Positions 1 to 33,535 of a stretch of 64,000 nt of DNA are shown in pieces (position 1 is the first letter of the stretch; each line of letters begins with the position of its first letter). A program made the position numbers and the translations under genes. The stretch covers positions 112,422,461 through 112,486,460 of the forward strand of contig NC_089595.1 of assembly GCF_019320115.1 (NCBI RefSeq), read 5' to 3'. Origin of the DNA: Miscanthus floridulus. Lineage: Eukaryota; Streptophyta; Magnoliopsida; Poales; Poaceae. Under the pieces are notes generated by a model that had not been told where the DNA came from, ran no database searches, and was given only the letters and a program-made list of their open reading frames with translations.

Positions 1-756
1 GTAGTAAATGTTTATGGAACACTTGGACAGTTATAGTGAATATGATAGGATGAAAGTTGTTTAATGATCATTGGTTATCATTATCTGCTTAATTATATGT
101 TTGCTCTAGTATAGGTGCAAATCTAGTCGACAGGTTAATAATAATTAAATTGACAATAATGCTTTTAGGAAGGTTCTTGAAAGGCTAAAAATGCTTCTTT
201 TGCAAATGAGTCAGCTACCCTACTATAAAGCCCTTCATAATCCTTGGTGTCACTTATTTTCGGTTATGTCGGGTAAGTCTAGCTGAGTACCTTCTCGTAC
301 TCAGGGTTTTATTCCCACTTGTTGCAGATAGGCAGATGTATTACGGCTACTGTATCAACTGCCTTTATCCTGCGATGGGTGATGCTTAGGACCATGGGCA
401 TGGTCATTCCTTACGTCTCGTCTGATGCTTTTGTTGGAGATGATCATTCGCTGGCACTATATTTGAACTCCGCGTGAGTGTGTGTGTGGTTTGAACAAAT
501 GGCTTCCACTACTTTTATTCGAACTTGTTTTGTAATAACTATGTTGAAACTCTGATGTATCTGAGATTGCAAACTTTTATGTAATATGTGACGGTGACCG
601 CTAAACTTATTATGATCTTGGCTGGAATGGAAGTTGGTTTGAAATCCTTCATGATTTCACGGACTACCGGGTTATACGGGCTTAAGTTTGCTAAATTGTC
701 TGCTCTGGCGGATGATTTTCTTACTTAATTTCATATAATTGGTCGGTTCTGTTACA
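1..756 (+). repeat. 5' LTR (3' portion) of Tekay-type element
   Basis: Collinear with 10557-11312 and ending in GTTACA just before the primer binding site. The rest of the LTR, about 3.1 kb by comparison with the 3' copy, lies left of the window. Confidence 0.92.
224..229 (+). promoter_or_regulatory. Candidate TATA box of the 5' LTR
   Basis: TATAAA, conserved in the 3' LTR at 10780-10785. If used, transcription would start about 30 bp downstream and leave a leader running through the LTR end. Motif only; no start-site evidence. Confidence 0.4.
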
Positions 757-758
757 GC

Positions 759-770
759 TGGCATCAGAGC
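759..770 (+). other. Primer binding site (initiator-Met tRNA type)
   Basis: TGGCATCAGAGC lies two bases after the LTR end. It differs by one base from TGGTATCAGAGC, the usual complement of the 3' end of plant initiator methionine tRNA. Confidence 0.85.
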
Positions 771-1547
771 ATGGTTTAGTGTGTGTACTATTCATAAGTG
801 TATTTAAAACAAAAAGGCATTTGGAAAACGTGATTTTCAAAATATAAAGTGTGCCAGTGATCATATCCTTTATGCCCAGTTAAGGACTTTAGGTGGCTTA
901 ATTAAGTACTGACTTGGGGTTCTTGCATCATATTTCTCTTTCGTCGCTCATACGGCGTGCTATTGTATGAGTGCCACTTGTTTGAGTGGTAATGAATGGA
1001 TCATTTGCCTCTACGCCTTGGTAAGTGTGAGTTGTGAGAGCATGATCGGATACACCGCCGATCTAGGGTGAATGCTTATATGATGCTGGAGTAATTACAT
1101 GTTCTACGCATGTTTTACAAAGGTATCTCATGTATGGGTCTTCCGTCTGTGGAGGCGATGCCATCAATAGGACGATGGTTCGGGTAGTTACTACCGTTGT
1201 ACACGTTTCTGGGGATTCGTGTAGAGCGTGTAGATAAAAATTTACTGCTTTTATGCATTCATTGGAAATTGGGCTGAAATGAATCTTCTGCAGGTACATA
1301 ACAACGCTATCGTGTAGAACGTATTAGCTACGTATTGAGAGATCGTTTGTATGCCACCGAATTCGTCGTTAGAAATTATTTATTTCATAAGTTTGTGAGA
1401 ACGTACGGCATGTACATACATCATATTACTTGTGCATTTCATTCATGTCATGCATTCCTCCCCTTATAAATTGATTATCTCCTTTTGATATAAGTTGTAT
1501 CACCTAAAATATGTTTCCCCGGGGTAATAAAAGAACTTTTGCTACAG
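771..1547 (+). other. Untranslated leader of the Tekay-type element
   Basis: About 780 bp with no supported coding frame. It ends in a pyrimidine-containing stretch and CAG directly before the next reading frame, so it could be an intron whose acceptor is at 1545-1547. That is inference. Confidence 0.45.
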
Positions 1548-2537
1548 ATAGCCTGCACGAAGCAGACCGCCCGTAAGTCCACCGGAGGAAGAGCACCTCG
1601 ACGTCCGTTGGCCCTGAGGGCGCACCGCACCACGGACACCTTCTTGAGCGAGTTTGGCATGCCAACTTTGCTTTGGAGAGTGCTCCATGATGTGGGGTAC
1701 CCAGAGGGTCAAGAGCCGGTGTACTCTTGGAATGAGAGCCAGTTAGCAGAGGATGGACTCGCAGTGGTGGAGATCACGGTTCCTGCTCTCGGTGATGCTC
1801 CAGATTGGGATGGTTGGCATTTGGAGTTTGAGGGTCGCACTCCAGCTGAGGGTGCAGAGGGAGCAGCCTTCCGTGTCATCAGGGATATTACGAGCAGATT
1901 TCCCAGTGAGCTTGCAGCAGCTCTAGCTGGCACTTTTCCTAGGGATGATCCTCGTGATGCCATTTGGGTTCAGCCTCAGGGAAGTGCATTGGTCAGAGGT
2001 CCAGCTGAGGGACAGGCTAGCGACAACCATTCTATGAGCGCTATGTTCGCCGCCATCAGAGCATATGAGGGTCTCGAGAGTACCTACTAGACTTTGACTG
2101 GCTTGCGTGGTCAGGATAAGCTCAAGAGGAGAAAGCAGAAGAAGAGACAGGCACGTGCTATAGCTAGCTTGCAGGAGCAGTTGGCTGATATGAACTTACA
2201 GCGAGATCAGGTGGTTGAGAGAGGTGATAGAGCTATGCAGCGGGTGCATACGTTGACTCAAGCCAACAACAATGCAGATCGCATGATAGGACAGTTGGTT
2301 CAGGAAAAGAATGAAGCCTGGGACGACAGGGACCTTCTGTTGTAGAGGGTCAATGAGCTAGAGGAATACAATGGCAACCTGCACGAGGAGTTTCACGCGC
2401 TCTACAATGGGGTTGGCCCATATGCTCCACCGGACGCCGCTGGCATGGACATCGACAACGACAACGAGGATGAGCCTGTAGTTTCACCTGGGGGCGATGG
2501 TGACGTCTCTGATCCCGACGATGGCCCCGAGGAGTAG
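1548..2537 (+). pseudogene. Extra frame upstream of gag with histone H3 tail-like N-terminus, coiled coil and acidic tail
   Basis: One frame of 329 codons interrupted by TAG at 2088-2090 and 2343-2345. Counting the histone way, residues 3-13 are identical to the H3 tail (TKQTARKSTGG), then A15, P16, R17, L20 and A21 match, while positions 14, 18 and 23 are Arg instead of Lys. Position 2 is Cys (TGC) instead of Arg, and the codon at the usual Met position is ATA. Residues of about 40-180 form an unrecognised, probably globular region rich in Gly, Asp and Trp. Residues of about 186-265 are a basic then heptad-like coiled coil. The last 35 residues are strongly acidic. There is no histone fold, so it is not a histone gene. 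A CAG just before the frame could be a splice acceptor. Its role is unknown; histone-tail mimicry is inference. The tail match is certain; that it was once expressed is likely because the frame stays coherent over 990 bp. Confidence 0.7.
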
Positions 2538-2896
2538 GCTAGTTGCCTTGCGCTAGTATCTAGGTCCTGTCGTGATGACCTTTCTTTTGTTGGCATGTAA
2601 CCTATTGTATGTTGCTTCGAACGTATGAGACTTTGCATGTGGTTGGAACTTGATTTTCGAATGCGATATCTGAACGCATAAAAGTCCAGTGTATGTATGC
2701 TAGCAAATTGGTTGTATGGACGCGATGTTTGCCGTTGAAGTAATTTGATTAAGTGCTGTTGTTTTAATTGGGATGCGATTGTTGTGCCTCTGTTTTATTG
2801 TATGAATTTATTCTCTCCAGTAAATTCAGTACGGCATAATTTTTCCTTCACTCGCAATTATTATAGCTTCACTCAATCATTACTTATTGCTGAAAT
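2538..2896 (+). other. Non-coding spacer between the H3-tail frame and gag
   Basis: AT-rich, no supported frame. It ends in TGCAG directly before an ATG (2903) in the gag frame, so gag may also be reached by splicing. Nothing else recognised. Confidence 0.4.
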
Positions 2897-4045
2897 ATGC
2901 AGATGACAAACACTCACCGAACCACGTATGAGGCCGCTGAGACCGGTGCTAATGGTGCGGGGACCGGTGGTGGTGGTGGTGGAAACCACGGCAACAACAA
3001 TGAACCTCCCCATGAACCGCATTTGCCACCTCCTCCCCCGTTTACCCCCGAGATGTTCCTCGCACAGCTGCTCGGGAGTCAGCGCAACGTGGAACAATCC
3101 CAGAAGAACATGGAGGATTTTCTGCGCACCATCGCCAACAATGTTCAACGTGGTAACAATCAAGGTGGTGGCATGGGAGTGAACCAATATAGCAGCTTCA
3201 AAGATTTCATGGACACCAGGCCGCCAGTATTCAAGGAAGCAATAGCACCACTCGATGCTGAGGAATGGATCAACACGATGGAAGATAAATTCCATGTGTT
3301 GAGGATGACTGAGGTGTTGAAAACGGAGTATGCTGCACTTCAGCTGCAAGGACCAGCGGGAATGTGGTGGAAGCACCATCGCACCACCTTCCCTCCAAAT
3401 GCTCAAATTTCTTGGAGAGAGTTTGCTAAGGCCTTCCGTGGAGTCTATATTCCACCCGGGCTGACCGAGATGAAGTTGGGAGAATTCTTGGCATTAAGTC
3501 AGTGCACGACCGTGACACAATATCTGCATGCCTTCAACAACTTGTGTCGCTATGCTCCCGACATGGTTGACACAGATGCTAAAAGAATAGCCAGTTTTAA
3601 GAGGGGACTCAATCCAAAAATGATGAAGCATGTTGGTACCAACAACTGCGTCAGATTCAATGACTTCATCAGTGACTGTCTGAAGCAGGAGAAGAATAAC
3701 AACGCCAGCACCGCAGCCAAGACACGCAAGAGAGCCCTTGAAGGTGGTCCATCACAAGCTAGAGCACCTATGAGAGGTCATCCTCCATATCGCCCATCGG
3801 CACCTGGCGCTAGGTTCAGGCCACCTCAGCAAAGAAGTCAGAATTTCTGTGGACCCTAGAAGCCTTACAAGATGGCAGTACAGCCCAACAAGGCAGCCGC
3901 AACTGTGGTACAAGGCAGTTCCAAGGGAGTTGTGGGATCTGTTGGGACAGGGAGGGGACCCTGCTATAACTGTGATCAACCCGGCCACTTCTCGAGGTTT
4001 TCTCTATACCCGCCCAAGAAGAAGCAGCAGACTTATAATGCTAGA
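2897..4045 (+). pseudogene. gag of Tekay-type element (capsid and degenerate zinc knuckle)
   Basis: Structural polyprotein that would package element RNA. After a Gly/Asn/Pro-rich N-terminus (about 70 residues) comes the retrotransposon gag capsid domain (about residues 105-265), recognisable by PPVFKEA, AEEWI, a WW pair followed by Phe-Arg runs, and the F(K/R)xGL region. An in-frame TAG follows at 3857-3859. The frame continues into a CCHC-type knuckle at 3961-4005 whose last Cys is replaced by Ser. The next residues lead into protease in the same frame, so gag and pol are one frame in this family. The start is either 2897 or the Met two codons later. Confidence 0.85.
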
Positions 4046-7000
4046 GTGCATAGTACGATAGTGGATGAAATTCCTGAGGGAGAGCCCGTCACTGCTGGTA
4101 AGTTTCCTATCAACGAAAACCCTGCAGTTGTTCTATTTGATTCTGGATCATCGCATTCTTTTATGAGTCAAGCATTTGCACAGAAACATGAACAACTATG
4201 CACAAAATTGGGTTATGGTTACCGTATAAGTTCAGCAGGGGCTGATGTTTTGACTAACCGGATGGTTCGAGGGGCAACCCTTGAATTAGGTAGCAGGAAG
4301 TTCTGAGTGAACTTGATAGTTATGCCTGGATTAGTTTTAGATGTCATTATAGGGATGAATTGGATGAAGGATTGGGGAGCAGTCATAGATACTGGAAGTC
4401 GAGTACTTACCCTTAAGGATCCCCTGGGTGAGGGTACTTTCCAAGTACCATTGCCTCAGAGAACAGACCTGATAAGTGTTACATGTGCTACGGCAGTCAT
4501 TCCTATTCATCAGATTTCGGTAGTGTGTGAATTTCCGGATGTATTCCCAAATGAGCTACCTGGTCTTCCGCCGGATAGGGAGATTGAGTTTGGAATTGAG
4601 TTAGTCCCCAGAACAGCTCCGATTTCAAGGAGACCCTATCGGATGCCTCCAGATGAGTTAGCTGAGCTGAAGAAGCAATTAAAAGATTTATCAAAAAAGG
4701 GGTTTATTCGGCCAAGCAAGTCTGAATGGGGATGTCCCGCCTTGTTTGTGAAGAATAAGAAAGAGGGCATGTTGAGAATGTGCGTAGATTACAGGCCACT
4801 CAACACTGTAACCATAAAGAATAAGTATCCCTTGCCTCATATTGATGTTCTGTTTGACCAATTATCCAAGGCCAAGGTGTTCTCAAAAATAGATTTGAGA
4901 TCCGGTTATCATCAGATCAAGATTAGGCCATAGGATATACCGAAAACTGCATTTTCCACCAGATACGGGTTGTATGAGTATCTTGTCATGTCCTTTGGCT
5001 TGACAAATGCTCCTGCATACTTTATGTTTTTGATGAGTACAGTTTTCATGCCAGAATTGGATAAGTTTGTGGTAGTGTTCATCGATGACATTCTGGTGTA
5101 CTCCGAGAACAAGAAAGATCATGAAGAGCATCTGAGAACTATCTTGACCAGACTTAGGGATCATCAACTATATGCTAAGTTTAGCAAATGCGAATTCTGG
5201 TTGAAGGAAGTTCCTTTCCTTGGTCACATTCTGTCAGAGAATGGGGTTTCAGTCGATCCAAGTAAGGTGCAAGAAGTTATGAATTGGAAAGCACCGACCA
5301 CAGTTCCTGAGATTAGAAGTTTCTTAGGACTAGCGGGTTATTACCGTCGCTTTATACCAGATTTCTTGAAAATTGCCAAACTGATGACAAGTCTCCTACA
5401 GAAGGATCACAAGTTTGTGTGGACAGAGGAGTGTGAAGCAGCTTTCCACACTTTGTAGGAACTGTTGACCACTGCTCCTGTTCTAGCACAACCAGATATC
5501 GAGAAACCATTTGATGTGTTTTGCGACGCATCGAAGACTGGATTGGGCTGTGTTCTTATGCAAGAAAGGAGAGTCATTGCTTATGCATCACGTCAATTGA
5601 GAAAGCACGAGGTCAACTATCCAACACATGATCTTGAACTTGCTGCAGTTGTGCACGCCCTAAAAATTTGGAGACATTATCTACTTGGTAATGTGTGCAA
5701 CATTTTCACAGATCACAAGAGTCTTAAGTACATCTTTACCCAACCAGAGCTAAACATGAGACAGCGCAGATGGTTGGAATTGATCAAGGATTACAACTTA
5801 AATGTGCAATATCATCCTAGAAAGGCCAATGTAGTGGCAGATGCTTTGAGCAGAAAGTCACATTACTTGAATGTACAGCCATTACTTGAAGATGGGTTCG
5901 ATCTAATGCATCCTGCTATGTTACATAGTATTCAGATTAGTTGCTCTTTGGAGAGTAAGATAATAGAAGGCTAGAAAACAGACAAGGGGATATTCCACAT
6001 CAAAGAGAAAATAAAAGAAAAGTCGTCTCCACACTTTAAAGTGGATGAACAGGGCGTGTTGTGGTTTGACGACCATCTTGTGGTTCCCAAGGATCGAGAG
6101 CTTAGGAATAAACTCATGGATGAAGCTCACCTTTCTAAGCTATCTATCCATCCCGGAAGTAGTAAGATGTATCAAGAACTAAGATCTCATTATTGGTGGA
6201 CCAAAATGAAAAAAGAAATTACAGCATATGTTGTCAGATGTGACACATGTTGTCGAGTGAAAGCCATCCACATGAAACCTACCGGTATGTTGCAACCCTT
6301 ATCAGTCCCTAGTTGGAAGTGGGACGATATAAGTATGGATTTTATCACGGGTTTGCCCACTACTCAAAAAGGACATGATTCGATTTGGGTAATTGTGAAC
6401 CGTCTTACCAAGACCGCTCATTTCTTGCCAGTCAAAACAGATTATCGACCACCTCAATATGCTGAGAAGTATATCGCAGAAATTGGAGGTTGCATAGTAT
6501 ACCAAAGACCATAGTATCTGATAGAGGCTCATAGTTCATGGCTCACTTTTGGGAACATTTACACAAAGGCTTAGGAACTAGTTTGATTCGCAGTACCGCT
6601 TATCATCCTCAGACAGATGGTCAGACTGAACGAGTGAATGCTGTTTTGGAGGATATGTTAAGAGCCTATGTATTGTCTTCTAAGGGATCATGGGAGTCAT
6701 GGTTACCGTTAGCTAAGTTTTCTTATAATAATAGTTATCAAGAAAGCATCAAGATGGCTCCCTTTGAAGCTTTATATGGCAGAAAATGTAGAACACCATT
6801 GAATTGGGTCGAGCCTGGAGATAGAAGGTATTATGGCATTGACTTTGTAGAAGAAGCCGAGAAGAAAGTTCGTATTATTCAGCAGAATATGAAAGCTGCC
6901 CAATCACATCAAAAAAGTTATGTAGACAGAAGAAGGAGACCCCTTGTGTTTGAAGTTGGTGACTATGTTTATCTGAAAGTCACGCCAATGAAGAAGAAAA

Positions 7001-7398
7001 GGTTTGGAGTCCGAAGAAAGCTTGCCGCGAGATTCGTAGGACCATACAAGATCTTGGAACAAAGAGGTTCGGTAGCCTACAAGTTAGAGTTACCTGAGAC
7101 AATGAGTACCGTTTTCCCAGTTTTCCATGTATCACACCTCAAGAAATGTTTGCGTGTTCCGGAGGAAAGAATAGAACCTCGAGGTATCCAACTCGAATCA
7201 GATTTGGTGTATCGTGAGCAACCAGTCCGGGTGTTAGACACTAAGGAACATGCTACTCAGAATAGTGTGGTGAAAACATACAAGATACAGTGGGATCATC
7301 ATGATGAGGGAGATGCAACTTGGGAAACAGGAGAGTATCTACAAAAAGCTTATGAAGATTTTTATAACAAATGGTTCGTAACCCAAATCTCGGGATGA
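4046..7398 (+). pseudogene. pol of Tekay-type element: protease, RT, RNase H, integrase, chromodomain
   Basis: Enzymes for reverse transcription and integration. The protease has an active-site DSGSSHS at about 4138. RT spans about 4750-5455 with the catalytic FIDDILVYS motif at about 5078-5104. RNase H spans about 5490-5860 (FCDAS, DLELAAV, TDHKSL). Integrase has an HHCC zinc region (about 6125-6260) and catalytic residues in MDFITGLP, SDRGS (Asp codon 6520-6522) and DGQTERVN (Glu codon 6628-6630), giving DD35E spacing. The C-terminus (about 7200-7380) is a chromodomain-like region with aromatic residues around IQWDHHDEGDATWE. In-frame stops: TGA 4304, TAG 4931, 5456, 5972 and 6532; one frameshift lies near 6470-6500. 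Gene order RT, RNase H, integrase plus the chromodomain identify a chromovirus. Cannot be functional as read. Confidence 0.88.
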
Positions 7399-7410
7399 GA
7401 TTTTTATAAG

Positions 7411-7420
7411 AGGGGAGGGA
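7411..7420 (+). other. Polypurine tract
   Basis: Ten purines (AGGGGAGGGA) immediately before the 3' LTR start; the usual plus-strand primer position. Confidence 0.85.
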
Positions 7421-7954
7421 TGTAACACCCCGGTGTTATGCCTGCATATAGGCACTGCAAATCATACATATCATGCATCATCAAGCATCCTAATCATACA
7501 TGCCTAATCATGTAAATAACAATTGAAACACTGCTTCGAAACATATGAAACATGTTGTGAAACCTGAATGTTGCATACATTTGTTAGAATGGTTTTGCCC
7601 TGATTTTGCTTGCTAGGTTAGTAAAACATGTTTGGCTACTATTGTAAATCATCTAGGATTATTTAGTTCAATTTTTGGAGCAAGCTTTGTATTCAAATTA
7701 ATTCAAAATTTTGCTTCCAAAGTAATTTCCCGAAAATTAGGGTTTTGAGTTAAACATGGACTTTGATTTTACAATTCAAAATCTAGAAAGAATTTGGCTT
7801 TGGTCATAAAAGCAAAGTTGTAGAGAATTAAATTTTAATCAACTTTCATTTTTGGTACATTCTCAAAAGATGTCATTTTCTTGCTTAAAATAATATTTGA
7901 AAGTTGGCATTTAAAAATTCCTTGAAAATACAAATGAAAAAGGGCTTTTTCTCC

Positions 7955-8765
7955 TTCGCGGGCCGCCGCCTCGCTTCTGGCCCACGGCCGAAGCCGGCCC
8001 AGCCAGCCTCTCGCCGCGCCGCGCGCCTCGCCTTGGCCCAGCCCAGCCCAGCGCCGCGCCTGGCCTGCCTTCGCGCGCGCCTGCCCGCTGACGCGCCGCG
8101 CCGCACCCGACCACGGCAGAGCTTGCCCGCCGCGTGGCGGCCATGCGCCGTCGACGCCGCCGCGCGTCGCAACCGGCCTGCGCCCGTGCCCACGTGCCCG
8201 CCTATTCCTGCCGAAGCCGGTGCGCTCGCTCGCTCACTCCCGCGCTGCTTCTCCTCTCCGCCAGCACCGCGCGCACTCGCTCTCCTCCTCGCCGCGCCAC
8301 CGCACCCGCCGGCCAAATTCACCGCGCCTTCTCCACCGCGGCCAGCAATCACGCGCCCACAGTTCTGCCTCGCTCTCCGGCACGTCGTGCTCGCACCCGT
8401 GCCGACTTCCGAGCTCAGGTAGCGCCATCTCGAGCTTCGCCACCGTCGGCCATGGCGCCGCTGTGCTCGGCCGCCGTGGAAGTCGCCCTTCCTTCTCTTC
8501 TCCACCCTGCCTAGCTACCTTCCCGCCTTCGCCATCTTCTCGCAAGCCTCATGCTCCCGCTAACTCGCCCTGTCACGGCCGGCAATGGCCACCGGCCTCG
8601 TGGCCGAGCCGCGCCGCCGCGACGTCGCAGCACCGGCGTGGCCTCTGCCTCAGCCGAGCCAGGCCGAAAGGCCATGGGCCGACGCCCTGCCGGGCCATCT
8701 CCCCCTTCCATTCGCTCGGGCCGCGCAGGCCAAATGTGGCCGTGGGTCGATTGAATCCAGCGGGC
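7955..8765 (+). other. GC- and CpG-rich island inside the LTR
   Basis: About 0.8 kb dense in CG dinucleotides and repeated GGCCCA/GCCCA motifs inside an otherwise AT-rich LTR. Several overlapping frames are open only because stop codons are rare in such sequence; they are Ala/Pro/Arg-rich and unrecognisable. It may be promoter-like or derived from a host gene's 5' end. Inference only. Confidence 0.55.
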
Positions 8766-9691
8766 TGGCCCAGTAGAAATAGGATGAATTGTTTTCAATT
8801 TATTCTTTATTATTTAAAAATAGAAATGGTTTGAAAAATGTTTGGATACTCAAAGTTGCTCCAAATCTATTGAAATAAATTTGTCTAGGTTACTTATCAT
8901 CAGATCTACTTGGGAAAATTATTGCATGTCATTTTTGAGATACTTTGCTGTAGAATTTTATTTAATCATGTATATTGCTGATAACTTGAAAAATATGTAG
9001 AAAAATCTATAGGCTTTAGAAAAATATGATTCCAAGTTTGTTAATCTTCTTATGTCATGTACTTCCTAGGAAAAATATGTTTCATGCATGTGCTATGGGA
9101 AAATTTTGAGGTGTAGTTCAAGTACCTTTAATGGCTGATTTTTGTTATTTTAGTTAGAGAGCAAACTTTGTATAAAACATTAATGTGATAATTTTTGTAT
9201 AGTCATTGTATGCTATGAAGAATATAGGAAAAATACTAACTCTGTTGTTTGACACTTTTCACAGTACAAAGTATTTTCTTGTACATAATCATGCCATAGC
9301 TTGTTATTTTTGTGTAGGCTAATCCACTCATTCAAATACCATGAAAATCTGATAGTAAACTACTTAGGGTAGTACTATGCTGTAGTAATTTTCTAAGATT
9401 TTTCTAAGCAATAAAAATAGATATTGCTATTCAAACCTATTATTAATTAGGGTTTAATTAAGTGTTGCTTTTTGTGGGATTAAGAAATTAGTAAAGCTTT
9501 GGTGTATCTTTGAAGCATTTAATAAAATATGTTGACTTAACATATTAGTAGTAGAAGAGAATGCAGTAGATGACATGTGCTTGTAGTATATTTTCTTGGA
9601 TGATGTTGACTACCTCGCATTCAAACATATCCATTGTATTCATCTCATCCGATGCACCAATTGCATAAGCACTTACGCACATTGCATCATA

Positions 9692-9880
9692 CAGGATCGC
9701 AAACCGAGAACCCAGTTGTCATACCCGAGGAGCCCGAGGAGCAGTTCGAGGTACAGCCGTAGGAAGTGCCCAAAGCCGACGAGGAGGACGTTGAGGAACT
9801 TTCGGAGTGCCCCGATCACCGTCCGAGCTCCTTCGAGAGAGGCAAGCCCCGGAGCATTTTCTCCTGGTTTGCAATTATTA
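9692..9880 (+). other. Possible short acidic exon within the LTR
   Basis: After CATACAG (acceptor-like), the + frame starting at the GGATCG reads an acidic Pro/Glu-rich peptide, then a Phe-Glu-Arg-Gly-Lys-Pro-Arg segment and a hydrophobic end, broken by one TAG. The composition looks protein-like, but length and support are low. Confidence 0.2.
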
Positions 9881-11312
9881 ATTCAATACTTTACTTTAAT
9901 TGATGCATTATGTTCAGGAGTTGTTTGCAACCGTTGCTGCATTATACCTTGTCTACCTTTGTTATACTATATCCTTGTTACCCGGGTATCCGCAGTCGAG
10001 TCAATGCTTAGCTGGCTTAGACCGGTAGAAGTCGGGTGATTTCCTGTCACCTGCGAGCTATAGGTGGTTACCTAGATCTGCTTGGATGACTATGAAGTCA
10101 TGGTATAACTAAGTGTTAAATGAAATTGAGACCAGACGGAGACTTGCAGAGTTTTGGACTGTAGTGTTTCTGTCTGTGTCAATTAAGGACCGGCCGTTGT
10201 TGGGCCTCGAGTCATGTTGAACGCATGCCTTACATTTAGCTGGCCGGATAAAGTACCTTCTGACCACGAAGCTGGGAGATTATTCGGGCCGAGTAGATTG
10301 CCCGCAGCGCACTGTGCCGGAGCAGGTGTGGTAGGACACGGGGGCGAGATGATAAGACCAAAGTGCAGTCGGTCGGCCCCCGAGTACATGTGGTTCCTAG
10401 CAAACTCGAGATTCCTGGATAGTTGACTCGGTGATCAATATCTCACTTTAGCAGGTGAGTGAGGTTTGTGTAAGGAATAAATCACCGGCTGGTTAGGAAT
10501 CGATTCGAATCGCCATCGCTCCTGGATAGTGAGCACTTGACTTGAGTTACTTCATCGTAGTAAATGTTTATGGAACACTTGGACAGTTATAGTGAATATG
10601 ATAGGATGGAAGTTGTTTAATGATCATTGGTTATCATTATCTGCTTAATTATATGTTTGCTCTAGTATAGGTGCAAATCTAGTCGACAGGTTAATAATAA
10701 TTAAATTGACAATAATGCTTTTAGGAAGGTTCTTGAAAGGCTAAAAATGCTTCTTTTGTAAATGAGTCAGCTACCCTACTATAAAGCCCTTCATAATCCT
10801 TGGTGTCACTTATTTTTGGTTATGTTGGATAAGTCTAGCTGAGTACCTTCTCGTACTCAGGGTTTTATTCCCACTTGTTGCAGATGGGCAGATGTATTAC
10901 GGCTACTGTATCAACTGCCTTTATCCTGCGATGGGTGATGCTTAGGACCATGGGCATGGTCATTCCTTATGTCTCGTCTGATGCTTTTGTTGGAGATGAT
11001 CATTCGCTGGCACTATATTTGAACTCCACGTGAGTGTGTGTGTGGTTTGAACAAATGGCTTCCGCTACTTTTATTCGAACTTGTTTTGTAATAACTATGT
11101 TGAAACTCTGATGTATCTGAGATTGCGAACTTTTATGTAATATGTGACGGTGACCACTAAACTTATTATGATCTTGGCTGGAATGGAAGTTGGTTTGAAA
11201 TCCTTCGTGATTTCACGGACTACCGGGTTATACGGGCTTAAGTTTGCTAAATCGTCTGCTCTGGCGGATGATTTTCTTACTTAATTTCGTATAATTGGTC
11301 GGTTCTGTTACA

Positions 11313-14649: not shown

Positions 14650-16136
14650 TCCTTACTGGAGGATATAAAGATGACCCACAATCTGTCAAGTTACTGGATC
14701 GATTAGCTTTGACAATGTCCACTAAGCAGGGTTACTCCTTAACTGATGGAGTCATTAGATACTAGGGTAGGATATGGATTGGCAATAATGTCTTAGCTCA
14801 GCAGCATGTGGTGCAATCACTTCATAACAGTGGGATTGGATGACACTCTGGATTTCATGCAACATATCAGAGAGTCAAGAACCTATTTGCCTGGCCAAAG
14901 ATGAAGGATACTATTCAGAAGTATATCAAGGAATGTACTATGTGTCAACAAGCTAAAACTGAAAGGGTAAGACTTCCGGGTCTTTTGGCACCCTTACCTG
15001 TTCCTGATCAAGCTTGGTTTGTTGTGAGCCTAGATTTTGTGGAGGGCCTGCCAATGTCATATAGATTCAATGCTATTCTCGGTGTAATTGACAAGTTCAC
15101 TAAGTATGGGCATTTCATTCCCCTTGCACACCCTTTCACTGCTCTGCAAGTTGCACAATTGTATATGGATAATTTATACAAGTTACATGGATTGCCTCAA
15201 GTCCTTATTTCTAACAGAGACAAGATCTTCACTAGCTCTGTGTGGCAAAGTTTATTCACGCTGACAGATACACAATTGCACATGTCTTCTTCATATCATC
15301 CATGGTATGATGGACAGACTGAGAGGCTAAATCAATGTCTAGAAGCAGTTTTGAGGTGTAATGTACAATCTTGTCCAAAACAATAGAGCAAATGGCTACC
15401 CTTGGTAGAATTTTGGTACAATACATCATACCACACAGCTCTGGGGAGAACACCCTTTGAAGTACTCTATGGGCATCCACCCAGTCACTTTGGAATAGTC
15501 AATGCTGATGTCTGCCACCCTACTGAATTAGATGAGTGGTTATCTGAGAGGCAGCTTCTAAATCAAGTCATTCAGCAACAGTTAACTCGGGCTAGCCATA
15601 GAATGAAACAACAAGCTGATCGACATAGATCTGAGAGGGAGTTTGATGTTGGTGACATGGTGTATCTCAAGGTTCAGCTTTACATTCAAACAATTGTTGC
15701 AAACCGGGCGATTCAGAAACTGGCTTATAAGTATTTTGGGCCATTCAAGATATTGCAGAGGATTGGCAGTGTCGCATATAAGTTGGATCTACCTGCAATA
15801 GCTAAGATTCATTCAGTGATTCTTGTCTCTCAGTTGAAGAGGCATGTACCACCGTCAGTGGTGGTTTCTGAAGCTTTGATTGATCTAGCTTTGGTGCTTA
15901 AACCTATACATATTGTTGATTCTTGGCTGACCAGGACAGGTACCGCTAATCATACTGAGCTGTTGGTCCAGTGGGTAGGATTGCCAGAAAAGCTAATAAC
16001 TTGGGAAGAAGCCTTTGATTTGTGGCGTCGACATCCTGATGCTCTAGCTTGGGGTCAAGCTGGATTTGAAGGAGTGGGTACTATTATGTGTCGGAAGAGA
16101 AACAAGAGCGGGAAGAGAAGAAAGAACAAGGAATGA
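14650..16136 (+). pseudogene. Integrase and chromodomain of a Reina-type chromovirus (partial pol)
   Basis: The 3' part of a Ty3/gypsy pol on the plus strand, beginning in the RNase H/integrase linker at the copia boundary. The HHCC zinc region is at about 14820-14950 (HSGFHATYQR, CTMCQQAK). The integrase core has LDFVEGLP. The second catalytic Asp is replaced by Asn (AAC at 15213-15215, in SNRDKIF), and Glu is present in DGQTERLN. In-frame stops: TGA near 14840 and TAG at 15384-15386. The C-terminus carries LVQWVGLPEKLITWEEAFDL, a classic Reina-type chromodomain. Upstream gag, protease and RT lie beyond the nested insertions, outside the window. Inactive because of the stops and the lost catalytic residue. 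Confidence 0.85.
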
Positions 16137-19413: not shown

Positions 19414-19797
19414 TATCGATACGGGACCCACAGGATACCCCGCAAGGGAGAGAGAAGATCTAGTTCAATTAGGATTCTTCCCATGTAAATCTTAGTAGCA
19501 GAACTATTAAGTAATCATACTAGGAAATCTCATTGTAAACCGACTAGGACTCTGGCCTCCTGACTATATAAAGGAGGGCAGGGCTCCTATCAATAGAACA
19601 CGACACTTGAGAATCAATCCAACGCAAAGGCCTAAGGCCGACTGGACGTAAGGTTATTACTCGATCTACGATCGAGGGCCTGAACCAGGATAAATCGGCT
19701 GTCTCTTGCGTTAACCATCGAGTTCAGCATACGCCGAAGCCCAAACATACTGCCTCGGGTACCCCCGTGGCAGGCTATCGGTGGTGAAACATCGACA
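19414..19797 (+). repeat. 5' LTR of Tat element A
   Basis: Starts TATCGATACGGG (3' copy TGTCGATACGGG) and ends ACATCGACA. A TATA box, TATATAAA, lies at 19565-19572. 384 bp. Confidence 0.93.
19565..19572 (+). promoter_or_regulatory. TATA box of the Tat A 5' LTR
   Basis: TATATAAA, conserved in the 3' LTR at 33303-33310 and on the minus strand in both LTRs of element C (46697-46704 and 56820-56827). Cross-copy conservation supports a promoter role. Confidence 0.6.
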
Positions 19798-19817
19798 GCT
19801 GGCGCGCCAGGTAGGGG
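19798..19817 (+). other. Primer binding site region of Tat element A
   Basis: GCTGGCGCGCCAGGTAGGGG follows the LTR directly. The same sequence flanks the 5' LTR of element C. The priming tRNA is not the initiator-Met type; which tRNA it is cannot be settled here. Confidence 0.6.
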
Positions 19818-19845
19818 ACTTCGACGACTTTGCATCCGAGAGCTC

Positions 19846-22130
19846 GATGGACCTCGACAACATAATCTTCCCGACGGGATCAACTTTCATCTTCGGCTCG
19901 TGGATCTGCGAGGCAGACAACAACGGCAAGCTTCAAAGCCATCTCCTCGAAGATCCAGATCATCTTAAAGAAGTTCTTATTTCAACAACGGCAACGAATC
20001 AACTCACCAGAAGATTCGCGCAGCTCATAGTATCCGATTCAAATCAGATTTCACGACCACTCGTATCCGATTCGAATTCAAGCTCCAAGGCGAAGTTTTA
20101 TCTGAGTGCTTTCAAGAAACCGAGTTCTTTTTTGGCAAGATTCCAGAGCACAACCCAAAACAACTCGGATTACCTTCAGAGTTCTCTCAAGAAGTCGAGT
20201 TCTTTTCCATTTGGGCTCGACAACATGGCAAAATCCTATCAGGGACAGTTCGAAAGATCTTTCAATCCTAGATTCGGGATACCACTGACAGGAGCTCAGG
20301 AGGGTCTCGTGCTAACGATAACATCGCAGGACTGTATCATCCACTGGCCGGGTTCCATTCCTGAGGGTAGCGGAACCCAACTAGTCGGCACAACAACAAC
20401 CGCTATTCTACCTTACCAAGAGGGAGACTCGATCTACGACACCGAGGCTTCTACTAAAGTTATCAGCGACTCCGACAGCATGAAAACTAACGCCAATAAC
20501 AGAATGACTCACGCACGAGAAGTGCTCATGGTTCGACGTTCGCGGTCACCATTAAATCCCCCGGAAGCACCCGATATCAGATCATCAGATGAATCAGAAT
20601 CCAACATATCACCCTTTGCCCAGGGCTACGATGGAGAAACCGATAGTCAGAAACAAGCTAGAGAAAGAAAAAACAAGTTGAAGAAAGGGCGCCAACACCG
20701 TGCTAGGCAGCGCAGGGAAGCTTGGATCAGATACGAGTCAGAATTGGCTGAGTACGACAAAAGAAAATCGCAACGGGAAGTTGAAGGAAGACGCACGACA
20801 AATATGCCTTACGATAAGATTCGAGAAGCATTAGAAGAACTCGGAGCAACTTCACATCCTGGTGAGAAGTATGAACAGCTCCAGGACTTGCTCCGATCGA
20901 CGATCCCGAGAACGCATGAAGAGAAAACTCGATCAAGACTACCCGCCAGATCAACAACTCACCGGCAAGAAGATCAAAATCAAAGGAAATCCGCTTTCGA
21001 AAGACTTGGGCCGGGTGGAAGCCATGATGGAGGAAGTAGAAAGGAACATAATCAAGGCCACCGATTTGAACAACTAAGGAAGACTAGGAGCAGGGTACCT
21101 ACCTAGACAACCTCGCAAGATTGTTCCCATCAGGACAACAGTTGGCCAGAAGAAGGTGCCGAATCTGAATTCAAAGAAACCAAGGCACACGACAGGTTCC
21201 CCTGTTTCGCGAACAGGCTCGCATTAGTACGATTACCTCACAAATTCAAACCGTCTAACCATTCCAAGTATGATGGCAAAACTGAACCAAGGCAATGGCT
21301 CAGAATATATTCACACTCAATTGAACTGGCCGGAGGAGACGACGATATCAAAACCCTTTTCTTTCCCATGGCACTAGAGGCCATGCCCCTCCAATGGGTC
21401 GACAAGCTGAACCCAGGATCTATCAGAAATTGGGAGGATTTGCAAAGAGTTTTTTGCGAAAATTTTGCAGGAATCATTACACACCCAATCACTCATGCAG
21501 AGCTAAAAGGACTCAAGCAAAAGGGAGGTGAAAGTCTTAGAAATTACTATCGACGATTCAGCGAACTATGAGCTCAAGTACATGACATAACCGAACGAGA
21601 AGTAATTGAAGCTTTCTCTCACGGAATCATGGCTAGGTGGCAATTTCAAGATTTTTGCAAAGAAAACCCGAGAAACAATGAAGAATTCAGACGTACAGTA
21701 GAAAAGATGATTACTGCAGAAGAAAAAATACGAGAGAGGTTCCCGGACAGAAACAACCAGGACAACTCGGACAAGCAAAATCACCGAAATAGCAGACATC
21801 AAGAAAGAAAACGTAGACCAGACAATACTATGGCAATGGCCGACAAATCAAAGAAGTTTCCCAAACCCAGAAGATATGATGACATTGAAAACATACGTTG
21901 CCCATTGCACCCTAGTGGGAGGCACACCATCGAAAATTGCTACACTTTCAATGATCGATACACAAGAAGAGATAGTAAGGAAAACACCAAAGAGGACAAT
22001 CAGAAAAGAGAAGAAGACAACCACGAGGACAAAGGATTCCAAAAACCCAGGGGAACGGTAGCAGTGATTTTCTCAGGGGCTCCAGATTGCAGAAGCAAAC
22101 ATCAAGAAAAACTAGCACTGCGGACCATTA
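19846..22130 (+). pseudogene. gag of Tat element A
   Basis: Structural protein of the element. From the Met at 19846 (MDLDNIIF) it runs through a poorly conserved Ser-rich N-terminal part and a basic Lys/Arg-rich segment (about 20650-20780). The capsid domain follows: PLQWVDKLNPGSIRNWEDL at about 21390-21450 and KGGESLRNYYRRF. Then comes a basic nucleocapsid-like region with a single Cys/His cluster (CPLHPSGRHTIENCY, about 21900-21945). Stops at 21104 (TAG) and 21569 (TGA) interrupt a single frame that continues into pol. An upstream extension in the same frame lacks an ATG and overlaps the LTR, so I start at 19846. Confidence 0.8.
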
Positions 22131-25100
22131 TGACAGCAGAACCGGCTACACCAAGATACCTCAATTGGTCACAGTATCCTTTCCAATTTACCAGAGAAGA
22201 CCAATGGACTAGCGTGGGAAACGCAGGCCATTATCCACTGGTTCTAGATCCGACTATTGCCGGTATGACCGTCACCAAAGTACTAATCGATGGAGGAGCT
22301 GGACTCAACATCATCTTTTCAGAAACTCTAAGGAAAATGGGACTACAACTCGCCGGGATGATTACGCCAAAAAGCACACCCTTTTACGGAATAGTACCCG
22401 GCAAAGCAGCCATGCCACTCGGATAAATTACTTTACCTGTTACCTTTGGAACTCCTTCAAACTACCGAACAGAGTTTATCAAATTTGAAGTCGCTGACTT
22501 CGATTCGTCTTATCATGCAATCCTCGGACGTCCAGCACTGGCCAAATTCATGGCAATACCACATTATCCGTACTTACTGCTTAAGATGCCAGGACCAAAC
22601 GGTATCCTTTCTCTTCGAAGCGATTTGAAGCGCGCTTTTGACTGCGATGTTCAGGCAATCCAAATTGCAGCTAAAGCGCAAGCCGACAATGGAAGAAAAG
22701 AAATAGCCGCAATCGCTGTAGAGACAAGCCAAGAAGAATTAGAAATACTGGCTAAAAAGCCCAGCATCATCGCACCACCAAAAGAAGCCGACGTCAAGCA
22801 AATCGACTTAGGCACAGGCGATACCTCCAAGACAGCAACCATCAGTGCTCACCTCTCGGCAAAATAGGAACTCGCGCTCACCAACTTTCTTCGGGACAAC
22901 AAAGATATCTTCGCTTGGAAGCCGGCTGACATGCCAGGAGTCCCAAGGGAGTTGGCTGAGCACAGAATTGATGTTAACAAAAGCTCCAAGCCTGTAAAGC
23001 AACGGCTACGACGATTCTCACCCGACAAGAAGGCAGCAATTAAAAAGGAAATAACAAAACTAATGGCAGCCGGATTCATCAAGGAAATCCTTCATCCAGA
23101 TTGGCTAGCAAATCCGGTCCTTGTGCAGAAGAAAAACACGGACGAGTGGCGTATGTGCGTCGATTACACAGATCTCAACAAACATTGCCCAAAAGATCCG
23201 TCGGGCTACCACGCATTGACCAGATAGTTGACTCGATAGCAGGATCTACGCTATTATCTTTTCTCGATTGCTATTCAGGATATCACCAGATCACACTAAA
23301 AGAAGAAGACCAGAGCAAGACATCTTTCATCACCCCGTTTGGTGCCTACTGCTACAAGACCATGTCGTTTGGACTAAAGAACGCTGGCGCCACGTATCAA
23401 AGAGCTATCCAGACTTGCCTTGGGAATCAAATTGGCGAAAATGTGGAAGCATACGTGGACGATGTGGTGGTGAAAACAAAGAACCCAGACACTCTAATTG
23501 AAGATTTAAAGCAAACCTTCGAAAACTTGAAGAAATGGAGATGGAAATTAAACCCAAATAAATGTGTATTTGGAGTTCCCTCAGGACAACTACTCGGATT
23601 TTTGGTCAGTCAGTGCGGGATCAAAGCCAGCACCAAGCAAATTCGAGCTATAACAGAAATGGGCCCACCTAGAAGTGTCAAAGATGTGCAGAAACTAACA
23701 GGATGCATGGCGGCCCTCAACCACTTCATATCAAGACTCGGCGAAAAGGGATTACCTTTCTTTAAACTACTAAAGAAAACAGACAAGTTCGAGTGGACAA
23801 TAGAGGCCGATGAAGCTTTCAAAAAACTTAAAGAATACCTCACTTCGTCGCCTATCCTGACACCTCCAAAGAAAGATGAAGATATGATGCTATATATTGC
23901 GGTAACTCCTACAGTAATCAGCACAGCAATAGTCATAGAAAGAGAAGAACAAGGGCGCGTGTATAAAGTGCAACGTCCCATATACTACATTAGCGAAGTA
24001 CTGTCAGAATCTAAAACCCGGTACCCGCATGTACAAAAACTACTCTACGCTCTACTCATTACCTCACGGAAGCTTCGCCACTATTTCGAAAGCCACAAGA
24101 TTACCGTGGTGACAGATTTCCCACTCGGAGACATCCTACACAATAAAGATGCCACGGGGCGCATATCCAAGTGGGCAGTTGAAATTGGAGCTCTTGACAT
24201 CAATTTCACCCCACGGAAAGCAATCAAATCTCAAGCCCTCGCCGATTTCGTGGCCGAATGGACACAGATTCAACAGCCTTTATCAGATACAATCCTTGAC
24301 CACTGGAAGATGTACTTTGACGGATCACTCAAACTAGGAGGGGCCGGTGCAGGCGTTCTCCTCATTTCTCCAGAAGGAAAACAACTCAAGTATGTCCTTC
24401 AGATATTATGGCAAGCTACAAATAACGAAGCAGAATATGAAGCCCTCATCCACGGGCTACGAGTGGCGATCACCCTCGGAATAAAAAGATTACTCGTATA
24501 CGGCGATTCAGCAGTAGTCATCAACCAAGTCAACAAAGATTGGGATTGCACCAAAGAAAACATGGGTGCTTATTGTGCTGAAATACGGAAACTTGAAAAA
24601 CATTTCCAAGGATTAGAAATTCTACACGTCCTACGCGATTCCAACATTGCAGCAGATGTCCTTGCCAAGCTCGGATCAGACAGAGCAAAGGTTCCACCCG
24701 GTGTGTTCATAGAAGAGCTATCAATTCCCTCTATCAAACAACCCGGTGAAACAACACATGAAATTTAGGCTAAAGGCGTTTAGATCTTGGTAATCAACAC
24801 TTCATGGAGCCAAGTTTTCATCGACTATATCAAAGAAAATAAACTGCCAGCAGATAAAGCAGAAGCCACCCAAGTTGTTCGCAGAAGCAAAAACTACGTT
24901 CTAGTAGGGGATAAGCTTTACAGAAGAGCAGCATCATCAGGAGTACTACTAAAATGTGTCTCATTTGAAGAAGGCAAAGAAATCCTAGATGAAATACACT
25001 CAGGTTGCTGTGGAAATCATGCCACTTCAAGGACACTGGTTGGCAAAGCATTTCACACCGGATTCTACTGGCCAACCGCCTTGAAGGACGCAGAAGAGCT

Positions 25101-26043
25101 TGTCAGAAAATGCAAAGGTTGCCAAATGTTTGCGAGACAAGCCCACGTACCAGCTCACAATCTTATCTGCATCCCACCCGCTTGGCCTTTTTCCTACTGG
25201 GGGCTAGATCAAGTAGGACCCCTGAAAAAAGCAAAAGGCGGCTTCGAGTACATCTTTGTGGCAATTGACAAGTTCACCAAGTGGATTGAATACAAACCAC
25301 TCGCGAAATACAGCGCAACCAAAGCAGTCGAATTCATCCAAGACATTATGCACCGCTTTGGCATGCCCAATCGAATCATCACAGATCTAGGCTCCCCCTT
25401 CACAGCTACAGAATTCAAGAGCTGGGCACAAGACTGTGGTTTCAGTATAGACTATGCGTCTGTTGCACATCCAGAGGCCAACGGACAAGTAGAAAGGGCT
25501 AATGGACTCATACTAGCCGGATTAAAGCCAAGATTATATGAAGAACTAGTGGACTATGGGTCCAAATGGATTGAAGAATTACCGAAAGTAGTATGGGGAC
25601 TACGAACTCAAATAAGCAGAGCAACAGGCTACTCACCCTTCTTCCTGGTTTACGGGTTAGAGGCCGTACTGCCCGCCGATTTGATCTGGACATCCCCAAA
25701 GATAGAGCAATACGATGAAGGGGAAGCAGAACACACAAGAAGATTAGAACTCGACAGCTCAGAAGAAATCAGAGTAAACGCTACCCTCCAATCAGCCAGA
25801 TACCTACAAGGTTTAAGACGGCATTACAACAAAAGTACCCAACCCCGATCACTACAAGTCGGAGACTTAGTACTAAGAAGGATACAGAAGACTGACGGAC
25901 GACATAAGCTACTCAGTCCATGGGAAGGTCCGTTCATTGTCACAAAAGTCACCAGACCAGGCACATACAAGTTAATGACCGAAGATGGAAAAGAAGTCAG
26001 CAATACATGGCACATCAGCCAGCTAAGAAGGTTCTACGCGTAA
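22131..26043 (+). pseudogene. pol of Tat element A: protease, RT, RNase H, archaeal-type RNase H, integrase
   Basis: The protease has VLIDGGAGLNIIF (about 22280). A TAA (22424) and TAG (22865) follow. RT spans about 22990-23760 with WRMCVDYTDLN and YVDDVVVKT (Asp pair in 23458-23463). A frameshift at about 23201 moves the frame by one. RNase H (about 23880-24250) is followed by a second RNase H starting MYFDGSLKLGGAGAG (about 24310) with NNEAEYEAL and YGDSAVVI, the extra domain of Tat elements. TAG stops lie at 24766 and 24781. Integrase: HHCC (about 24990-25135) and catalytic Asp 25207, Asp 25384, Glu 25492 with DD35E spacing. It ends at 26043 without a chromodomain. Not functional as read, but all catalytic residues checked are present. 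Confidence 0.9.
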
Positions 26044-26213
26044 AAAACAACTCAAGAAAAAAAAACAGATATGCAAGCCATGAGGGACCTACGTTCACAA
26101 TCAACGAAAGACAATACTCTTCAACAACATATGTATCAGTTTATACTCATGATCAATAAAGATGATATTCATCCACAGCATGTCTTGTCATGACTTCCAA
26201 CGAGTTGTTTTCA

Positions 26214-27088
26214 CGAAACAAAAAGCAAAATGGCTGAAAACATGCCTGAGCATCCCGGCCAAGAGCAAAATAGCTGAAAAGACGCTTGAGCTCACCGATG
26301 AGGGTAGCTAAAAGCTAACACCCGAAACAAAAAGCAAAATGGCTAAAAACATGCCTGAGCATCCCGGCCGAGAGCAAAATAGCTGAAAAGACGCTTGAGC
26401 TCGCCGATGAGGGTAGCTAAAAGCTAACACCCGAAACAAAAAGCAAAATGGCTGAAAACATGCCTGAGCATCCCGGCCGAGAGCAAAATAGCTAAAAAAA
26501 CGCTTGAGCTCGCCGATGAGGGTAGCTAAAAGCTAACACCCGAAACAAAAAGCAAAATGGCTGAAAACATGCCTGGGCATCCCGGCCAAGAGCAAAATAG
26601 CTGAAAAAACGCTTGAGCTCGCCGATGAGGGTAGCTAAAAGCTAACACCCGAAATAAAAAGCAAAATGGCTGAAAACATGCCTGAGCATCCCAGCCAAGA
26701 GCAAAATAGCTGAAAAGACGCTTGAGCTCGCCGATGAGGGTAGCTAAAAGCTAACACCCGAAACAAAAAGCAAAATGGCTGAAAACATACCTGAGCATCT
26801 CGGCCGAGAGCAAAATAGCTGAAAAAAGCGCTTGAGCCCGCCGATGAGGGTAGCTAAAAGCTAACACCCGAAACAAAAAGCAAAATGGCTGAAAACATGC
26901 CTGAGCATCCCGGCCGGGAGCAAAATAGCTGAAAAAATGCTTGAGCCCGCCGATGAGGGTAGCTACAAGCTAACACCCGAAACAAAAAGCAAAATGGCTG
27001 AAAACATGCCTGAGCATTCTGGACGAGAGCAAAATAGCTGAAAAGATGCTTGAGCCCGCCGATGAAGGTAGCTAAAAGCTAACACCCA
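26214..27088 (+). repeat. Tandem array, 8 units of 109 bp, in the Tat A 3' region
   Basis: The phrase CGAAACAAAAAGCAAAATGGC recurs at 26214, 26323, 26432, 26541, 26650, 26759, 26869 and 26978: a period of 109, once 110. Each unit consists of two related halves (GCAAAATGGCTGAAAACATGCCTGAGC and a diverged copy). Element C has the same unit, five times, at 49668-50205 on the other strand. Tandem repeats here are known for Tat elements. Confidence 0.95.
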
Positions 27089-27221
27089 AAACCAGTCGAC
27101 CGAAATTTAACTTCAAAAGACCCTCCAGCATTTCGTTCCAAAAAGCAAGAGGCTGGGGGGCTACATCCAGATAGGAATACTTTCTCCTCAGAAAAGCACA
27201 AGCGCCAATCAAGAAAGCACT

Positions 27222-27420
27222 CAAGAAAGCACTCGGATGCCGAAGTTTGTCAAGGCAACATTCTATACCCACTCAAGAAAGCACTCGGATGCCGAAGTTT
27301 GTCAAGGCAACATTCTATACCGAGTCGTTTTACATAGCGCAAGAAGAAAGCACTCGGATGCCGAAGTTTGTCAAGGCAACATTCTATACCGAGTCGTTTT
27401 ACATAGCGCAGGCGAAAGGT
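27222..27420 (+). repeat. Second short tandem repeat in Tat A
   Basis: AAGCACTCGGATGCCGAAGTTTGTCAAGGCAACATTCTATACC occurs three times with spacers of varying length. The corresponding stretch of element C (49020-49380, reverse strand) repeats another related phrase four to five times. Confidence 0.85.
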
Positions 27421-27697
27421 TGTCAACGCAAAGATCTACATCTAACAAATCATAGCACGGACAAAACACTCGACGGATCACAAAAGAGGAAGAAAAGAAA
27501 AGTACTTGACAAATCGAGGGGTCTCGTCAGGATAACACACAGAGTTGTTTTGCGGAGCGGAGACAGGAACAGGACAAAGTACTCAGCAAGTCAAGTAACT
27601 TCAACCACACCCAGGCAAAGAATACATCAACAAAAATAAAGAATCTTCATTTAAAGGGGAGTGTAATATCACAAGGGGATGCTCAATCAAGTCAGGC

Positions 27698-30600: not shown

Positions 30601-30911
30601 AACTGATGAAGGAAGGCGGAAGCAGGAAGACAAAGTCTAGCGCGGACAAAGGAAACAAAAAGGACAATCTCACCAGGACCCGGAGCCGGAACCCGATGCT
30701 CGCCCGGAACTCTCCACTCAGCGATGACTTTGCTTTGGATCAGGCCGTCGCTAACGAGCTCGCGCAGCTGGTCTTCGCTTGTTATTGGAGCCGGCCAAAC
30801 CTTCTGAGCTGCCCTCATGGCCACAAACTCCTGGTTTTCAATCAAAGAGAGGGATGACTCCTCGTCCACGAAGGTCGCCTGAGACTTGCTTGCGGTTTTC
30901 TTCTTTCCCAT
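27698..30911 (-). pseudogene. Antisense multi-exon gene of Tat element A ('putative gypsy-type transposon' domain plus coiled coil)
   Basis: Starts at 30911 (MGKKKTASKSQ). The first exon holds the domain known as putative gypsy-type transposon (Transposase_28-like): WRVPGEHRVPAPGPGEIVLF, LGYFGVSLNHLTPNAVLHL, FVHLCEAFLGIPPSL and FRLKPQ. A TGA at 30334-30336 stands where Trp is expected. Intron borders visible on the minus strand: 29951-29852, 29544-29468 and 29403-29328, each GTGAG at the donor and CAG or AAG at the acceptor. Later exons are Ser/Pro-rich, then coiled coils (about 28510-28320 and 28245-27900), ending DIPLSNDNA near 27695. The role is unknown; similar antisense genes occur in Tat elements. 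It has its own orientation, so it needs its own promoter; TATAAATA on the minus strand near 32000 is a candidate. Confidence 0.75.
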
Positions 30912-33141: not shown

Positions 33142-33152
33142 GCTCGGGGGCT
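33142..33152 (+). other. Polypurine tract region of Tat element A
   Basis: GCTCGGGGGCT directly before the 3' LTR; the same tract lies next to the 3' LTR of element C on the minus strand (46855-46867). Confidence 0.65.
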
Positions 33153-33535
33153 TGTCGATACGGGACCCATAGGATACCCCGCAAGGGAGAGAAAGATCTA
33201 GTTCAACTAGGATTCTTCCCATGTAAATCTTAGTAGCAGAACTATTAAGTAATCCTACTAGGAAATCTCATTGTAAACCGACTAGGACTCTGGCCTTCTG
33301 ACTATATAAAGGAGGGCAGGGCTCCTATCAACAGAACACGACACTTGAGAATCAATCCAACGCAAAGGCCTAAGGCCGACTGGACGTAAGGTTATTACTC
33401 GATCTACGATCGAGGGCCTGAACCAGGATAAATCGGCTGTCTCTTGCGTTAACCATCGAGTTCAGCATACGCCGAAGCCCGAACATACTGCCCCGGGTAC
33501 CCCCGTGGCAGGCTATCGGTGGTGAAACATCGACA
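33153..33535 (+). repeat. 3' LTR of Tat element A
   Basis: TGTCGATACGGG to ACATCGACA, 383 bp, matching 19414-19797. Followed by the target copy ACGTC. Confidence 0.93.

Follow-up and report, generated by a model that had tools for sequence, protein, structure and literature searches.

Why should a grass retrotransposon begin one of its reading frames with the residues of a histone tail, and what would a protein so equipped do for the element? The question is raised by a stretch of 64,000 nucleotides from Miscanthus floridulus (contig NC_089595.1 of assembly GCF_019320115.1, positions 112,422,461 to 112,486,460 of the forward strand), hereafter the window, in whose numbering all positions are given. 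Its first 11,312 bases belong to a Ty3 element, the start of whose 5' long terminal repeat (LTR) lies outside the window, and which carries an extra open reading frame (ORF) ahead of gag, known as ORF0 or the 5' additional ORF (5'aORF). To judge from the sequences, ORF0 very probably carries a conserved mimic of the N-terminal tail of histone H3. The fuller reading, in which ORF0 is an anti-silencing accessory protein of a Tekay/Retrosat2-type chromovirus, combining the H3-mimic tail with a double-stranded RNA-binding domain (dsRBD) fold, a coiled coil and an acidic tail, is put forward as a serious but tentative proposal. The features on which the argument turns are the following:

1548 to 2537, forward strand: ORF0, 329 codons and a stop, from the ORF list; two in-frame stops and no ATG in this copy
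1548 to 1613, forward strand: H3-like N-terminal tail, codons 1 to 22 (the start codon position and H3 residues 1 to 21), from translation, phmmer, a motif search and relatives

The translation of the frame at 1548 begins IACTKQTARKSTGGRAPRRPLALRAHR, or in a longer reading of the tail region IACTKQTARKSTGGRAPRRPLAL, and bears out what the initial annotation had read in it: residues 3-13 are identical to those of H3, as are A15, P16, R17, L20 and A21, and Arg occupies H3 positions 14, 18 and 23. Residue 2 is Cys, not Arg, and the tail has a net charge of +6. A DNA pattern of the tail motif occurs once in the window with zero mismatches, against a mean of 0.00 in 100 dinucleotide shuffles, which rules out a chance match to H3. 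When PDB sequences were searched, histone H3 chains were matched both by the window frame with phmmer (best E 6.2e-5) and by a profile built from 71 ORF0 relatives (E 1.1e-5). The likeness is confined to residues 1-21, of which 19 of 21 are identical in the best ORF0 relatives, and the tail is all that the two proteins share; ORF0 lacks the histone fold, a Pfam scan of the window frames having given no PF00125 match, and a dsRBD and a coiled coil are predicted instead. The frame had been described as a continuous one of about 300 residues, and tail, coiled coil and acidic end do lie in one frame, but it is broken by stops at 2088 and 2343 and has no ATG.

Is the tail a peculiarity of this copy? 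Relatives were pooled from a whole-frame search (16 proteins), a profile search that scored 7997 candidates and gave 141 matches, 120 of them listed, and a tail-aimed search with residues 1-62 of P0109 as query (43 proteins), giving 149 proteins from JGI, ENA and other sources. An FLxE block, present in 34 of the 149, served as the anchor for tail counts; 28 of these 34 start with the tail, and the remaining 6 say nothing on the matter because their start lies inside or after the linker. Tail-bearing relatives among the pooled proteins rule out an insertion private to the window copy, and with it the chance insertion of an H3 fragment that the initial annotation had considered. P0146, which is tail-bearing with K4 and K9 kept, has no FLxE block and is not among the 28, and five proteins with H3-like tails and no ORF0 block (P0144, P0145, P0147, P0148 and P0149) were left out of the counts. 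A pattern search of viral contigs (34 pattern matches) and genome contigs (14) confirmed no relative.

Across the 28 tails, A1, K9 and S10 are present in all; R2 and T6 in 27; T3, K4, A7 and G12 in 26; R8 and G13 in 25; and T11 in 24; from position 13 on, the letters of P0136 and P0140 are shifted in these counts, as each is one Gly short. Lys occurs at neither position 14 nor position 18: the former has Arg in 25 tails, the latter His in 15 and Arg in 9. This pattern fits imitation of an H3 tail that would be methylatable and not acetylatable at positions 14 and 18. Of the K4 and K9 marks that the initial annotation thought the protein might imitate, K9 is the constant one; K4 is not universal, being Arg in the P0015/P0111 group.

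The tails fall into four groups, assigned by eye: group A resembles the window copy, group B (P0127 and others) reads TKLTARKS, group C comprises P0130 and others, and group D (P0015 and P0111) reads MARRRLTA(H/R)KSTGG, with K4 replaced by Arg and K9 retained. Between groups, identity is 69-89% in the tail, 38-59% in the linker, 64-83% in the first helix region and 40-65% over the whole dsRBD region, in a comparison of 12 of the 28 tail-bearing proteins in which group B is represented by one sequence and two of the six from group A end before helix 2. These figures argue against regarding the tail as a passenger, that is, an H3 gene fragment captured once and inherited without function, an account that draws on the decay of the copies and on the dead state of the one in the window and that we consider the least probable of those weighed here.

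Several relatives depart from the common plan. In P0146, an H3-like tail (K4 and K9 kept, R14, H18) is fused directly to an ORF0-type coiled coil with no dsRBD between, as in a putative deletion derivative or splice form; in P0141, the tail and first helix are of group C and the dsRBD-like sequence joined to them has clearly diverged further, possibly through recombination between ORF0 types or as an assembly artefact. P0144 and P0147 are histone-domain proteins (PF00125) with odd tails, P0144 having two tandem H3-like tails and P0147 an H3 tail ahead of what by eye appears to be an H2B fold. P0009, standing for 177 sequences clustered at 90%, ends at ESTY, the residue at which the window copy has its first stop; perhaps a subfamily shares this stop, or the contig breaks off at that point.

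What the tail is attached to was read from predicted structures and from charge:

1656 to 1901, forward strand: dsRBD-fold domain, codons 37-118, net charge -10, from models of P0015 and P0001 mapped by alignment
2094 to 2402, forward strand: long coiled-coil helix region with a basic start, codons 183-285, from helix 160-296 of the P0015 model mapped by alignment
2403 to 2534, forward strand: acidic C-terminal tail, codons 286-329, net charge -14, by charge count

The coiled coil with its basic start and the acidic tail agree with the initial annotation, the former through the mapped P0015 helix and the latter through the computed charges, and acidic ends also occur in the full-length relatives P0001, P0002, P0003, P0004, P0006, P0015, P0027 and P0030. 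The globular part had been taken for a novel domain, a description that gives way to the alpha-beta-beta-beta-alpha dsRBD fold of the predicted P0015 model, weaker in the P0001 model, and a likeness of this kind had already been hinted at in passages of PMC11728184. Sequence profiles are silent on this fold: the Pfam scan of the window frame 1494-2090 matched no family and no dsRBD profile, the dsRBD profile is absent among the 25 families listed of 29 for 14 relatives, and outside gag and integrase the Pfam scans gave weak coiled-coil matches alone. A viral fold library search returned matches of dsRBD and long-helix type and no clear homologue.

A dsRBD contacts double-stranded RNA (dsRNA) through a basic start of helix 2, the KKxxK motif. 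Of 46 ORF0 proteins, 45 have a domain of net negative charge, and at the start of helix 2, among 75 proteins, 52 have no Lys or Arg, 16 have one and 7 have two. The top three rows of a VIA structure comparison are protein-protein complexes or dimers, namely DRB7.2:DRB4, DCL4 dsRBD2:DRB4 and the STAU1 dimer, though RNA-bound dsRBDs come no more than about 1 Z unit behind. Plant DRB/DCL dsRBDs (DRB7.2, DRB4, DCL4 dsRBD2, HYL1) are 16-19% identical to the ORF0 domain, which differs from them in largely lacking basic RNA contacts and, in the window frame, in matching no Pfam family. On the predicted models, the domain, mostly acidic and with few RNA-contact lysines, is most likely a protein-binding dsRBD. 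The same observations speak against ORF0 being a dsRNA-binding suppressor of RNA silencing with an incidental tail, along the lines suggested in parts of PMC11728184 for DRBM-like (double-stranded RNA-binding motif) 5'aORF proteins; this would accord with the predicted fold, yet it leaves the tail unexplained, and we rate it very unlikely.

How much of this was known? Gao et al. (2012; PMC3485330) describe an ORF0 upstream of gag in Retrosat2 and its homologues of rice, maize, sorghum and Brachypodium, in passages that give no function for it. The hydrolase-like and other enzymatic roles that they deduced find no support in the dsRBD fold seen here. For maize Tekay and sorghum Sb7 proteins, sections of PMC11728184 report a DRBM-like fold (TM 0.35-0.37, e 0.04-0.25) and suggest modulation of RNA silencing. 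As far as these accounts extend, the ORF0/5'aORF of Retrosat2, RIRE3, RIRE8, ZMsat2, Sorsat2 and Tekay/Sb7 is the same extra sense frame between the 5' LTR and gag of elements with LTRs > 3 kb, and is likewise fast-diverging, with a long C-terminal helix and a weak dsRBD likeness (PMC3485330, PMC11728184). The word 'histone' has 0 occurrences in the main texts of these two papers and none in the review PMC7264820, and literature searches of open-licence papers gave no transposon-borne H3 tail in titles or abstract starts, the matches to the tail letters being histone biology. ORF0 and its dsRBD likeness are therefore known, and the conserved H3 tail appears to be new, the published ORF0s having been compared by description, their sequences not being in the papers' text.

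What, then, might the tail do? Removal of the start Met would expose A1-R2-T3-K4...K9-S10 as in H3, and the coiled coil would oligomerise ORF0, so that several tails would stand on one particle. Host H3K9 methyltransferases, H3K9 readers or both could then engage the tail, H3K9 writers and readers being the likeliest partners since K9 is constant; with these factors occupied, less H3K9 methylation would be deposited or read on the element's DNA, or less RNA-directed silencing fed by it would follow. The dsRBD-fold domain would bind protein, with the plant DRB/DCL machinery as a possible partner. That the tail is an anti-silencing decoy acting through K9 is a claim we hold with some reserve; the complete scheme, in which an oligomeric H3-tail protein, K9-methylated by the host, links or uncouples H3K9 and small-RNA silencing through a DRB-type protein-binding dsRBD and so serves as an anti-silencing histone mimic, is rather doubtful as a whole.

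A precedent for such mimicry is offered by influenza A NS1, which also has an RNA-binding domain, of a different fold from the dsRBD-type domain of ORF0. NS1 is likewise a parasite's accessory protein with an H3-like tail; in the account consulted, its mimic of the first H3 residues is short and C-terminal, whereas that of ORF0 comprises about 21 residues at the true N-terminus (PMC12937675). ORF0 shows the sequence match to a histone tail that an NS1-like histone mimic should have.

The tail may act against silencing or in targeting. In the latter case, it would bind host H3-tail readers or chaperones and steer either the particle or the pre-integration complex towards selected chromatin, with no contest over silencing. 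Here the element's integrase matters, for it ends in a chromodomain-like segment, with a Chromo match of E 0.0038 whose 17.6 bits fall short of the curated cut-off, 25.1. Its best PDB match is Clr4 (E 0.031), in an alignment that keeps the Trp and has His for the second cage Tyr; the first cage position, as judged by eye, has no aromatic residue. Group II chromodomains lack cage residues, Y24 and usually Y48 being lost and W45 kept, in the portions of PMC3350952 that describe them, and the end seen here appears to resemble this type. The chromodomain noted in the initial annotation is thus a candidate of group II-like form, and, as that type is described as lacking cage residues, it cannot be taken for granted that it reads methylated H3; the element's own chromodomain as reader of the tail was set aside as unproven. 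A group II-like chromodomain with no established partner in those portions of PMC3350952 leaves room for another targeting factor, the tail is retained across groups, and sunflower Tekay elements with a 5'aORF are described in PMC11728184 as inserting differently from those without. Against a tether, ORF0 is encoded apart from gag-pol and would need packaging, and the sunflower 5'aORF is there described as having no sequence similarity to the grass ones; we regard a tether as unlikely.

Could the tail simply be a captured import signal that brings ORF0 into the nucleus? H3 tails act as importin cargo signals, and the strong positive charge of the window tail would suit that purpose. Other Tekay 5'aORF proteins are, in sections of PMC11728184, predicted to be nuclear. 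An import signal, however, has no need of T3, T6, S10, T11, G12 and G13, which are kept in at least 24 of the 28 tails (at least 25 apart from T11), and Lys at 14 and 18 would do it no harm. We consider this explanation decidedly unlikely.

Returning to ORF0 as an anti-silencing accessory protein, we must set several points in the other scale. Sequence shows that the tail exists, that several diverged groups carry it, that they retain K9/S10 and mostly K4, and that Lys is absent from positions 14 and 18; the dsRBD fold and coiled coil come from prediction, and binding, methylation and an effect on host silencing are what we infer from them. With the P0015 model, Foldseek gave no PDB match at E <= 0.001 (best 5.7e-3), and the P0001 model is poor (mean pLDDT, the predicted local distance difference test, 60.5), its sole dsRBD match, which is also its top one, having E 0.15. 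The 28 tail-bearing relatives are enriched for tails, a search query itself having carried one, and no tail is seen in proteins whose called sequence starts at 'MPTLLW' (P0001-P0004 and others). Inside a group, the tail does not regularly vary less than the adjoining block: differences per site in tail and helix-1 block are 0.107 vs 0.056 in group A, 0.149 vs 0.081 in group B and 0.108 vs 0.341 in group C, the last block figure being inflated by three damaged or recombinant sequences. Such variability is expected if many members are decaying copies, so the within-group figures are no proof of selection. Lastly, R14 and R/H18 may be single founder changes.

The rest of the element, in which the position of ORF0 between LTR and gag is as first annotated, is made up as follows:

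1 to 756, forward strand: 3' part of the 5' LTR, with 98.1% identity to 10557-11312 across its 756 bases
759 to 770, forward strand: PBS-like primer binding site (PBS) TGGCATCAGAGC, sole match of a pattern search in the window
2903 to 3859, forward strand: gag frame (capsid); Retrotrans_gag E 7.9e-16, Ty3_capsid 1.2e-7
3860 to 7398, forward strand: remaining gag (zinc knuckle) and pol with several stops, ending in the integrase C-terminus and chromodomain-like end, from the ORF list; SH3_Tf2-1 1e-23 and the Chromo match in the last frame
7408 to 7420, forward strand: polypurine tract AAGAGGGGAGGGA, adjoining the start of the 3' LTR
7421 to 11312, forward strand: 3' LTR, 3892 bases, TGTAACACCCC...TGTTACA, by sequence comparison with the 5' LTR remainder

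The sequence at 759-770 resembles an initiator-tRNA-Met PBS. The LTR pair 1-756 and 10557-11312 has 14 differences, all 14 of them transitions, as is expected when methylated, silenced DNA decays, and the Kimura two-parameter (K2P) divergence of 0.019 corresponds to about 0.7 million years at a rate that we assume to be 1.3e-8. The copy is dead, with gag-pol split into several frames in addition to the lesions in ORF0. The extra sense ORF between 5' LTR and gag and the LTRs > 3 kb are those of a Retrosat2/Tekay-type element; DTKEHATQNSVVK, as read by eye, stands in the decayed window copy in place of the Tekay motif (K/R)X(L/T)RX(K/R), and GDATWETG, with TWE kept, in place of EEXTWEXE, so we name the element Tekay/Retrosat2-type and do not file it as Tekay.

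How ORF0 would be expressed ahead of gag is suggested by candidate splice sites, scored with a simple matrix:

1021 to 1026, forward strand: possible splice donor TTG|GTAAGT, inferred as the best of 147 GT sites in 757-2902
1533 to 1547, forward strand: possible splice acceptor ending directly before ORF0, rank 6 of 152 AG sites in 800-3000
2888 to 2902, forward strand: possible splice acceptor ending directly before the gag ATG, rank 5 of the same 152

Of 8 relatives whose frame extends upstream of the Met, 7 have Gln just before it, the residue that CAG|ATG would encode, and the eighth, P0146, has Arg. The arrangement suggests that ORF0 and gag may be made from alternatively spliced RNAs. 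One point within the leader, ATGAATCTTCTGCAG|GTACAT at 1285-1299, scores highest there as an acceptor and second highest as a donor, and so resembles a recursive splice site.

Elsewhere in the window, a second integrase frame with a chromodomain-like end, by eye from another Ty3 element, lies at 15387-16136. An A-rich LTR element occupies 19416-33535, with 382-base LTR pieces 97.9% alike, and an inverted copy of it at 83% identity occupies 46453-56975; both contain arrays of 109-110-base repeats, at 26105-27155 and 49649-50207, respectively.

For these abundant elements, the conserved H3 tail turns the role of ORF0, an open question in the portions of PMC3485330 and PMC11728184 that treat it, into a precise, testable hypothesis, and the predicted protein unites both currencies of plant silencing, H3K9 and the dsRBD fold. 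On that hypothesis, the retrotransposon would counter or exploit H3K9-based silencing by copying the very substrate that is silenced, and histone mimicry, known from viruses, would extend to transposable elements.
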